Under the pieces are notes generated by a model. That model did no database searches. It saw only the letters and a list, made by a program, of their open reading frames with translations, and was not told where the DNA came from. Positions 26,957 to 31,120 of a stretch of DNA of 61,985 nt are shown piece after piece (position 1 is the first letter of the stretch; each line of letters begins with the position of its first letter). The stretch covers positions 1 to 61,985 of the forward strand of contig JAGXBK010000002.1 of the NCBI GenBank assembly GCA_018971195.1. The letters run 5' to 3'. This DNA comes from Betaproteobacteria bacterium (GTDB lineage Bacteria > Pseudomonadota > Gammaproteobacteria > Burkholderiales > Casimicrobiaceae). A program made the position numbers and the translations under genes.

Positions 26957-27017
26957 GGGAGGCGGGGTGAGGGCGCAGGCATTCGAGTTAAAATCCGCTC
27001 GCAGGCGCGAAGTTGCT

Positions 27018-27111
27018 CGGATTGACGTGCAAGGCCACCGGAGAGGTGGATGAGCGGTTTAAGTCGCACGCCTGGAAAGCGTGTTTAGGGTAATCCCCTA
27101 ACGCGGGTTCG
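27018..27111 (+). pseudogene. Truncated tandem copy of tRNA-Ser (5' part to the T-loop only) with flank
   Basis: From GGAGAGG at 27040 to GGGTTCG at 27111 it matches 27251-27322 exactly; then diverges, with no 3' T-arm, acceptor strand or CCA. Confidence 0.9.
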
Positions 27112-27250
27112 GACGATGCGGCGGCCACAGGCCGACGCATCGGGCGTCCGCTAACGTGAGCGCAGCGAACGTTAAGCGAGCGAAGGCGAGCGGCGGATGC
27201 TCATCCCGCCCGCGGTCGCAGAGGCAATCGGATTCATGTGCAAGGCCACC

Positions 27251-27341
27251 GGAGAGGTGGATGAGCGGTTTAAGTCGCACGCCTGGAAAGCGTGTTTAGG
27301 GTAATCCCCTAACGCGGGTTCGAATCCCGCCCTCTCCGCCA
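27251..27341 (+). tRNA. tRNA-Ser, anticodon GGA
   Basis: Acceptor GGAGAGG/CCTCTCC, anticodon arm CACGC-CTGGAAA-GCGTG, long variable arm, T-arm CGGGTTCGAATCCCG, encoded GCCA end. Confidence 0.96.
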
Positions 27342-27560
27342 TTTATCATTATAGATCAACAACATACGTTTAGTGCTCCACTTCGTGTTTCAGCAAGCAT
27401 CGCGCTTGTATTCAAACGTACTCTCGACTGTTAGCCGAATTGTTCTGGTCGGTTCTCGATCAGCGAGTTGCCTAGAAATCAGGCAGCCTTCGCGCTGGTA
27501 GCCCGCCACGTCTCGCCGCCCCCGGTGGCCACCGCAATCCCCTGTTGTCGATAATAACAA

Positions 27561-27589
27561 TTGACGGTACTAATGTGTTGCATTAGTAT
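27561..27589 (+). promoter_or_regulatory. higBA promoter with overlapping palindromic operator
   Basis: TTGACG (27561-27566)-N17-TAGTAT (27584-27589); perfect inverted repeat TACTAATG-TGTTG-CATTAGTA at 27568-27588. Confidence 0.75.
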
Positions 27590-27595
27590 CAGCGG

Positions 27596-27877
27596 GTGAT
27601 CCGCTCATTCGCCGACAAGCTCACTGCGGCGGTATTCGATGGCCACAGGGTAAAGTCCTTCGGCCCGCAGGCGCAGGACGTGGCCCGGCGCAAGCTCAAG
27701 GCGATCGACGCAGCGAAGTTAATCGATGATTTGCGCGTTCCGCCGGGGAACCGACTGGAAAAGCTGTCGGGAGACCGCAAAGGGCAGTGGAGCATCCGGA
27801 TCAACGACCAATGGCGCGCATGTTTTCGGTGGGAGAACGGCGACGCACATGATGTGGAAATCACGGACTATCACTGA
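27596..27877 (+). CDS. higB: HigB/RelE-superfamily toxin
   Basis: VIRSFADKLTAAVFDGHRVKSF...RLEKLSGDRKGQWSIRINDQWRACFRWENGDAHDVEITDYH; paired with HigA. Confidence 0.93.
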   Translation: MIRSFADKLTAAVFDGHRVKSFGPQAQDVARRKLKAIDAAKLIDDLRVPPGNRLEKLSGDRKGQWSIRINDQWRACFRWENGDAHDVEITDYH

Positions 27878-27888
27878 ACGAGGTAACC

Positions 27889-28236
27889 ATGGCTATTCGG
27901 CGCGACGACCTCAGGAAGACCGAATTCTCGGATGTCTCGAGCGGCAAGCGGCTCGCCCCGGTGCATCCCGGCGACGTCTTGCTCAAAGACTTTATTGAGC
28001 CGCTGGGGATTTCCCGCTATCGCGTCGCCAAGAATATCAATGTTCCGCAGCGGCGTATCGACTTGATATGTCGCGGGGAGGCGGCCGTGTCGGCGGATAT
28101 GGCTCTGCGCCTCGGGCGCCTGTTCGGCACGACGCCGGAATTCTGGATCAACCTGCAAGCGCAGTACGATCTGGAAGTGGCTGAGCGCGCGGCCGGAAAA
28201 GCGATTGCCAAGGCTGTTGTCCCACTGGCGGCGTGA
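27889..28236 (+). CDS. higA: HigA antitoxin (XRE family)
   Basis: ...PVHPGDVLLKDFIEPLGISRYRVAKNINVPQRRIDLICRGEAAVSADMALRLGRLFGTTPEFWINLQAQYDLEVA. Confidence 0.95.
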   Translation: MAIRRDDLRKTEFSDVSSGKRLAPVHPGDVLLKDFIEPLGISRYRVAKNINVPQRRIDLICRGEAAVSADMALRLGRLFGTTPEFWINLQAQYDLEVAERAAGKAIAKAVVPLAA

Positions 28237-28330
28237 CGTACCGAAGGAGCGCCTGGTCAGATCCCGGTCGCCATGGTCGCTGGCAGAGTGGCTTCCGGTG
28301 CATTGGGATTTCAACTCCGCATAGGTCCGC

Positions 28331-29149
28331 GTGTCGTATGGTCTCATCGACGTTCCTACCCTCCAGGCGATTCAGGCGTTGGCCGACGCGCGGACGTTCG
28401 CGCGCGGCATGGCCTGTTTTCACGGCGGCCCGGTTGGACTGCTGGACGCCGATGAGTACGAGGCTCGCGCCAGCGTGCGCGGCACGCAGCGATATCGCGT
28501 TCGGCTGGGCGCCGCACCGGATGGCGAGCTGGATTACGAGCGCGATTGCCCGGTGGAGGACGACGGAACCTTCTGCAAGCACGCGGTCGCCGTCGCGTTG
28601 TCCTGGCTCGAGAAAACTGGAGAGCAAGCCTTCTAGCCAAGTGAGAAGGAACCCGCAAAGTCGCGGAAGAAGTGCAAGACTCATGGGAAGCAGATTCGGG
28701 ATTACCTGGAAACGTTCGCCAGGCCACGAAGCTCTCCGGCTTCGTCGATTGGCGAGTCGTGGGCAACTATGCCAATCGTCTTGGTGAATCGGCGCAGATC
28801 CTTGACGAACGCACCGGCGACGGCAATCCGAAATTGGTTGAGCCAACCGAGGATGCCATCGCACAGGCCGAGGATTCCTTGGGAACGATCGACGACAAGC
28901 CCGCTGTGGGACAAAGTCGTGGCCGTTCGCGGCGGAACGCACCCGGAAGGGGCCATCGCGCTCTACAAGAAATTGCTGCCCCACGCCGTGAATGCCGGGA
29001 CGCGAGGGGCGCAGTACGGCGCGGCATTCGAAATCGTCAAAGCGATACAGCGGCTACGCGCCATCCAAAGGCAGGACGCCGTCTTCAAGCAGGAGCTCGC
29101 CGAACGAAGATGTGCTTCCTGCGGTCAGTTTTTGGTCAGGAAAACGTAA
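28331..29149 (+). pseudogene. Degraded SWIM zinc-finger family gene
   Basis: Frame 2 (28331-28636) carries CPVEDDGTFCKHAVAVALSW (SWIM CxC..CxH-like); continues in frame 1 (28672 on: ATKLSGFVDWRVVGNYANRL...EDSLGTIDDKPAV), then frame 2 again (GGTHPEGAIALYKKLLPHAV...RRCASCGQF). Confidence 0.65.
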
Positions 29150-29181
29150 AGACCTGAGCCCAGCCTCGCAATACGACGGTC

Positions 29182-29202
29182 TCGAATCCCGCCCTCCCGC
29201 CA
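29182..29202 (+). repeat. att-like imperfect direct repeat of the tRNA-Ser 3' end
   Basis: TCGAATCCCGCCCTC-CCGCCA versus tRNA 27320-27341 TCGAATCCCGCCCTCTCCGCCA (single 1-nt gap). Confidence 0.8.
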
Positions 29203-29410
29203 GTCTCGCTTCCAGCGGCATCCGGCAACGACAGCCGAACTCAAACAGGTGCTCCCGGTCGCTACCCCCGGCGCGATTCTCTTCTGCCGCGTGGGTGGTG
29301 CTTGGCATCCAACCTGCGCAGCCGCGGTTGCTCCCGTCTCTTGCCTTTGATTGCGCTCGATCGCTTAACGCACGGCAGACTGGCCCATACTTGAACAGCC
29401 GAGCCAGGCG

Positions 29411-31120
29411 ATGGAGGGCGGGATCATGGTCGACAGAATCTGGCTGAAGCACTATCCCCCCGGCATACCCGCGGAGATCGATCCGGACAGCTTCCGCTCC
29501 ATCCCGGACCTGTTCGGCAAAACCACCGCCCGGTTTTCCGGAAGGCCGGCTTGTCACAACCTCGGCTACACCTTGAGCTATGCCGCCCTGGAGCGGCTGT
29601 CGCGCGATTTCGCGGCCTTTCTGCAGGGACTGCCGGGCATGGGGAAGGGCGAGCGGGTGGCCATCATGTCGCCGAACCTGCTGCAATATCCGGTGGCGCT
29701 GCTCGGGATCCTGCGCGCCGGCATGACAGTGGTCAACGTCAATCCCCTTTACACGCCGCGCGAGCTCGAACATCAACTGAAAGACTCGGGCGCCAGGGCC
29801 ATCGTCATCCTCGAGAACTTCGCGCGCACCCTGCAGGAGGTGCTCCCGGACACGCCGGTCGAGCATGTGATCACGACCCAGGTCGGCGACCTGCTGCCGC
29901 TATGGAGGCGCTGGCTCCTGAACTTCATCGTCAAACGCGCAAAGCGGATGGTTCCGGCGTGGCGCATCGAAGGCTCCTTCAAGCTCCGCGCTGCGCTGGC
30001 GCGGGGCGCGAGGGCCCCTTTCACGGCGGCCGATGTCGCGCCCGACGACGTCGCGTTCCTGCAGTACACCGGCGGCACCACCGGCGTGGCGAAAGGCGCG
30101 ATGCTGACCCACCGAAACATTCTTGCCAACATCGAGCAGACCGGGACGTGGGTGTCGGTCAGCTTCAAGGAAGGTTCCGAAATCGTCGTCACGCCCTTGC
30201 CGCTTTACCACATCTTCTCTCTCACGGCGACGTTGTCGTTCATGAGATGGGGCAGCCTGATCGTGCTGATCACGAACCCACGCGATATTCGCGCCTTCGT
30301 CAGGGAACTGGGAAAGTGGAAGTGGAGCGTCATCACCGGCGTCAATACGCTGTTCAATGGCTTGTTGAATGCGCGCGGATTCGACCGACTCGATTTCTCC
30401 GCGGTGAAAGTGGCCGTCGGCGGCGGTGCCGCCATACAGAAAGCGGTGGCCGATCGCTGGAAGCGGGTGACAGGTCATCCGATCACCGAGGCTTACGGCC
30501 TGACCGAAAGCTCGCCTGGCGTCTGCGCGAATCCGCTCGACGCCCCGTGGCGTGGCTCGATCGGCCTGCCGTTTCCCTCTACCGAGGTTTCGATTCGTGA
30601 CGACAGCTTCAACGAGTTGCCGGCATGGAACGGCGACGGTGACCTTGAAAAGCACACCGGCGTGCTGTGCGTGCGGGGGCCGCAGGTGATGAAGGGTTAC
30701 TGGAACGATCCGGTCGAAACAGCCAAGGTGATGCATGACGGCTGGTTGAAGACGGGCGACGTGGGCCACATGGACGCCGATGGCTATTTCACGATCACCG
30801 ACCGCAAGAAGGACATCATCGTGGTTTCCGGATTCAAGGTCTACCCAAACGAGGTGGAAGACGTCGTGGCAGGCCATCCGGGCGTGCTGGAGTGCGGCGT
30901 CGTGGGCGTGCCCCATCCCAAGACCGGCGAGGCGGTGAAAGTGGTGGTCGTGAAGAAGGATCCGAACCTCACCGAGCAAGCCGTGCTCGAGCACTGCAGG
31001 ATGCAGCTCACCAGCTACAAGCTGCCGCACCGTGTGGAGTTTCGCAGCGCCTTGCCGAAGTCGCCCATCGGGAAAGTCCTGCGGCGCGAGCTGCGCGATG
31101 CGCCCAGGGAGGGAACATGA
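29411..31120 (+). CDS. fadD: Long-chain fatty-acid--CoA ligase
   Basis: LQYTGGTTGVAKGAMLTHRNI AMP-binding motif; GWLKTGDVGHMDADGYFTITDRKKDIIVVSGFKVYPNEVE. Confidence 0.93.
   Translation: MEGGIMVDRIWLKHYPPGIPAEIDPDSFRSIPDLFGKTTARFSGRPACHNLGYTLSYAALERLSRDFAAFLQGLPGMGKGERVAIMSPNLLQYPVALLGILRAGMTVVNVNPLYTPRELEHQLKDSGARAIVILENFARTLQEVLPDTPVEHVITTQVGDLLPLWRRWLLNFIVKRAKRMVPAWRIEGSFKLRAALARGARAPFTAADVAPDDVAFLQYTGGTTGVAKGAMLTHRNILANIEQTGTWVSVSFKEGSEIVVTPLPLYHIFSLTATLSFMRWGSLIVLITNPRDIRAFVRELGKWKWSVITGVNTLFNGLLNARGFDRLDFSAVKVAVGGGAAIQKAVADRWKRVTGHPITEAYGLTESSPGVCANPLDAPWRGSIGLPFPSTEVSIRDDSFNELPAWNGDGDLEKHTGVLCVRGPQVMKGYWNDPVETAKVMHDGWLKTGDVGHMDADGYFTITDRKKDIIVVSGFKVYPNEVEDVVAGHPGVLECGVVGVPHPKTGEAVKVVVVKKDPNLTEQAVLEHCRMQLTSYKLPHRVEFRSALPKSPIGKVLRRELRDAPREGT

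Follow-up and report, generated by a model that had tools for sequence, protein, structure and literature searches.

The 1.9-kb stretch of DNA that follows a tRNA-Ser(GGA) gene and ends in a copy of the 3' end of that gene raises the question whether it is a mobile element, what is left of one, or an ordinary part of the chromosome. The window, i.e. the whole stretch of DNA that was analysed (61,985 nucleotides), is the entire contig C191 of the draft genome G000 (3.17 Mb, 288 contigs). The draft is 97.9% complete, and a gene absent from it may be a missed gene. A sequence-only reading of the locus had proposed either a remnant or minimal tRNA-integrating element kept by its toxin-antitoxin (TA) pair or a non-autonomous element mobilised in trans. 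According to our analysis, the stretch is most probably a mobile island that has shrunk to a remnant.

The intact tRNA-Ser(GGA) gene was identified by ARAGORN at 27251-27341 on the forward strand and matched Rfam RF00005 with 55.7 bits. Its 3' end, TCGAATCCCGCCCTCTCCGCCA (27320-27341, forward strand), is the proposed core of attL, and the proposed core of attR at 29182-29202, in the same orientation, is a copy of it. This recurrence had been reported in the sequence-only reading and was found again, with one base missing from the right copy. When the 15-base core TCGAATCCCGCCCTC was searched with at most one mismatch, these two repeats were the only sites found in the whole 3.17-Mb draft, and the reversed control gave no match in it. 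Commonness of the repeat elsewhere in the genome had been named as an observation that would speak against an island, and it was not observed, as neither the window nor the genome contains an additional copy of the core. A search of Rfam at E values up to 1 revealed no tRNA at the right repeat.

The left end of the interval (27342-27560, from the tRNA gene to the higB promoter, no strand assigned) is richer in A+T, the GC profile being 0.52-0.54 at 27150-27600 against ~0.65 around it and back to normal past 29202. No vestige of an integrase was detected in 27342-27560 by blastn and tblastx against the loci of the relatives. A promoter-like site (27561-27589, forward strand) lies over a perfect 8-5-8 palindrome (27568-27588), which is probably the HigA operator, and precedes two intact genes in the same orientation. 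The upstream gene, higB (27596-27877), codes for a HigB-like toxin of RelE fold of 93 amino acids (PF05015, E=3e-21; best PDB match 6f8s_B, 3.1e-23), and the downstream gene, higA (27889-28236), for a HigA antitoxin of 115 amino acids (TIGR02607, 101.9 bits for a cut-off of 47.7; HTH_3). They are followed by a SWIM zinc-finger gene (28331-29120, forward strand) whose longest frame, 28331-28636, is partial and has an E value of 0.012, under the Pfam cut-off; a relative of this gene with 75-78% DNA identity is present in the genome G019. The differences between G000 and its closest relative, G016, show no third-position bias in this frame, a pattern that fits a pseudogene. No integration or transfer gene was found in 27342-29181, and no recombinase or replication gene inside the unit. 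The low GC content of the left end, the HigBA pair, the decayed SWIM gene and the lack of an integrase had all been proposed from the sequence alone, and all were confirmed, neither an integrase nor a vestige of one being detected.

The right end of the unit contains a direct repeat, GGTCAGTTTTTGGTCAG (29123-29139, forward strand), proposed as an integrase arm-type site. The motif, GGTCA-N4-TTGGTCA, reads GGTCAGTTTTTGGTCAG in G000 and GGTCACTTCTTGGTCAC in the relative G013, and its spacing to the core is equal in the two genomes. The strongest evidence for an attachment site comes from bases that do not derive from the tRNA. In the 62-base stretch preceding the right repeat, G000 and G013, aligned in the same register, are identical at 39 positions, for a null mean of 17, and only 4 of 200,000 random pairs reached this score. 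G013 and G019 agree at 37 of the 62 positions (a score reached by 1 of 200,000 random pairs), and G000 and G019, compared directly, show a weak similarity (26/62). The 5' part of the tRNA matches the same stretch at 20-21 of 62 positions only, near the null mean, and the right repeat is therefore not a tRNA relic, the similarity to the tRNA not being continued upstream of the T-arm. The signature TTGGTCA-N(22-52)-TCGANTCCCGCC was then scanned for, together with control patterns, in 64 genomes of the family. It was found in three of them (G000, G016 and G013), each time just behind tRNA-Ser, and the controls gave no match. A stricter scan of the whole collection returned three records, namely the contigs of G013 and G016, both recognised by their content, and a Lysobacterales contig in which the arm motif precedes another tRNA-like 3' end with a T-arm-like core. 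An arm motif before a T-arm-like core is also seen in one viral contig, and in G011 an integrase gene located behind tRNA-Ser has the motif at the end that faces the tRNA. A loose signature based on TTCGA had no match in 399 genomes of the order, but this pattern misses G000 itself, which has CTCGA. From where the arm motif occurs, and from what is generally known about phage att sites, we infer that the motif may be an integrase arm site. Three results count as support for a putative attR at 29182-29202, namely the bases before it that are shared with G013, the restriction of the signature to three genomes of the family and the use of tRNA-Ser(GGA) by integrases in the genus. The unique core repeat and the conserved arm define candidate attL and attR sites at the sequence level.

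The order nramp-tRNA-Ser is kept in several congeners, and the DNA behind the tRNA gene varies. The suggestion that relatives be searched for integrases at tRNA-Ser(GGA) proved fruitful, as a P4-type integrase in which all three domains are present (G007) and another tyrosine recombinase (G014) lie directly behind this gene, and integrase fragments lie behind it in three more genomes (G011, G008 and G010). The tRNA-Ser(GGA) gene is thus an integration hotspot in the genus. G013 carries a mini-island of 1.0 kb at tRNA-Ser, with a HigB toxin (PF09907, 2.5e-30) of a family unlike that of G000, and an antitoxin-sized gene downstream of it that has no family match at E 0.01. The arm is present as well, and 19 bases of the tRNA T-arm are repeated exactly. 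At their left ends, the units of G000 and G013 are unlike each other. In G019, a defence cluster with type I restriction HsdM and HsdS, GmrSD and AbiEi/AbiEii is located directly behind tRNA-Ser(GGA) (L146, 1527-12056). The SWIM relative of the same genome is followed by a T-arm-like core, TTCGAGTCCCGCCCTCCCGCCA, away from any tRNA (L031, 4744-5504), and its neighbours, as judged by eye, are a VapC-like gene pair and a nitric-oxide-reductase-like gene. The latter could not be used for comparison, since norB is itself patchy. A full-size island of 40 kb in G019, from tRNA-Ser to the core at the SWIM end on one contig, was considered and rejected, the interval reading by eye as housekeeping genes. 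The tblastx comparison of the relatives' downstream DNA with the window gave chained weak matches and was uninformative.

The closest relative, G016, has the same unit content at ~95% identity, and its flanks are the same too. Shared content without polymorphism had been mentioned beforehand as evidence against an island, and this is half borne out, since G016 is alike but the more distant congeners differ behind nramp-tRNA-Ser. The alignment to relatives that had been proposed to reveal an empty site, i.e. tRNA-Ser joined to the right flank, demonstrated none among the genomes compared, nor did any element with these ends and an integrase turn up as a parent. The other relatives show no synteny in the right flank, and the right boundary is therefore provisional. 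Beyond it, a paralog of a fadD-like AMP-binding enzyme (29411-31120) is accessory and patchy in the genus, in surroundings that differ between genomes; G019, G010 and G005 were considered as empty sites for fadD and discarded, the surroundings being unrelated. When G000 and G016 are compared, none of the 64 synonymous sites of higB and 5 of the 88 of higA differ, the stretch from SWIM to the repeat is ~4% different, and the genes to the left of the island have synonymous rates of ~0.10-0.20. This low divergence could reflect a later exchange of the unit between the two genomes. However, the block of low divergence extends from ~27475 to 29310 and is not bounded by the repeats, so that ordinary recombination explains it equally well.

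Upstream of the intact gene lies a second tRNA-Ser copy, which the sequence-only reading had overlooked. A tandem partial duplication of tRNA-Ser(GGA) spans 26995-27322. In order, the locus shows a copy of the first 72 of the 91 bases, identical and broken in the T-loop (27040-27111, forward strand), a hairpin-rich repeat of ~90 bases that interrupts this copy and replaces the rest of its T-arm (27112-27202, forward strand), a diverged leader and the intact tRNA-Ser. G016 has a single copy, without the duplication. By eye, a TAAAAT box conserved in the relatives stands before the broken copy, and its position suggests that the intact tRNA-Ser may depend on read-through. Part of the hairpin-rich repeat, with the core GCTAACGTGAGCG-AGCGAACGTTAAGCGAG (27143-27203 of the window), is dispersed: it occurs once more in G000 (L002 1501-1542), just after a gene reading as pyruvate kinase, and in many places in the relatives, and G056 has three copies in tandem in 75-base steps. 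The repeat at 27112-27202 was considered as an integron attC and rejected by eye, as its end motifs do not fit. The recombinases of G000 comprise two Xer-like ones, assigned by score and size, one integron integrase and two partial frames. The integron integrase (L105 on C69) is complete (TIGR02249, 487 bits). No intact helper integrase of phage or P4 type was found in the draft.

On balance, 27320-29202 is probably the decayed remnant of a tyrosine-recombinase island in the 3' end of tRNA-Ser(GGA), held by its TA pair. The arm shared with G013, the integrases of the relatives and the intact higBA genes next to a decayed one strengthen this part of the earlier reading, and mobilisation in trans, its other part, received no direct support. 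Against a remnant speak the lack of an empty site and of an integrase-bearing parent, the identical occupancy in G016, the missing synteny of the right flank in other relatives, and the SWIM and core copy of G019 that lies away from any tRNA. The unit might instead be a non-autonomous mini-element, an att-TA-att cassette moved by an integrase acting in trans, in which the TA pair is a stability module. The mini-island of G013, with an unrelated HigB family and a matching right end, would fit such a cassette, as would a G000-G016 divergence of ~4% in the unit compared to 10-20% synonymous divergence to its left and the use of tRNA-Ser(GGA) by integrases of the genus. We nevertheless regard this as rather unlikely, given the lack of an intact phage- or P4-type integrase in G000, the low-divergence block that overruns the repeats, the unlike left ends in G000 and G013 and the lack of an empty site in the genomes compared. 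Somewhat more doubtful still is a whole family of integrase-less att-TA-att units at tRNA-Ser(GGA), which would share a common arm-core end, swap TA families and spread via the integrases of larger islands.

The right repeat may also not be the outer boundary. The patchy presence of fadD in the genus and its varying surroundings are compatible with a larger accessory region that extends past 29202 and includes this gene, 29182-29202 then being an internal att site resulting from accretion, but no further core copy is present in the window or genome and the GC content is normal again past 29202, which makes this improbable. If the right repeat were no att site at all, it would be a relic of tRNA duplication or a chance match, and higBA an ordinary chromosomal TA operon. 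The partial tRNA-Ser duplication at 26995-27322 provides a precedent and relatives of HigB are widespread; yet the sequence preceding the right repeat resembles that of G013 and not a tRNA (20/62), Rfam finds no tRNA there, and the core is confined to the two repeats within the genome. We hold this explanation to be very unlikely.

If the unit is the remnant of an island, a tyrosine recombinase would have inserted the island into the 3' end of tRNA-Ser(GGA), and integration would have restored a complete tRNA on the left side (attL), while a second 3' end would have come to lie on the right side (attR), where the arm-type sites of the element still adjoin it. The integrase and most of the cargo would have been deleted later, and the HigBA operon would keep the shortest version of the island in place, having stayed, as we propose, because the toxin would be set free if the operon were lost. 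Next to attR, the SWIM gene would be decaying passively. TA pairs are often said to prevent the loss of mobile islands, and in the present case the islands of two related bacteria seem to be reduced to little more than attachment ends and a TA pair, with toxins from different families. Retention driven by addiction, or TA mini-islands mobilised in trans, thereby become testable at one tRNA gene. If the unit is mobile, its circular junction would consist of the arm and TCGAATCCCGCCC joined to TCTCCGCCA-TTTATCATTAT.

Elements that lack integration and transfer genes but have kept attL and attR are known as CIMEs (cis-mobilizable elements; PMC5704250). The 27320-29202 unit, likewise flanked by attL- and attR-like sites and without integration or transfer genes, fits this definition at the level of sequence, although it is very small; an origin in an ICE or IME, like mobilisation in cis, would be hypothetical. 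Autonomous tRNA islands have a site-specific recombinase of their own, and none was found inside the unit. The P4-type tRNA islands, as in G007, use the same tRNA 3' end and have arm-like repeats near the core, but the unit differs from them in being without an integrase and almost without cargo. Operons of the PF05015 and TIGR02607 type (PDB 6f8s) also go by the name GraTA. In gene order, families, sizes and the palindromic operator-like site, the unit resembles the type II HigBA/GraTA operons, from which it differs only in its location between tRNA-derived repeats.
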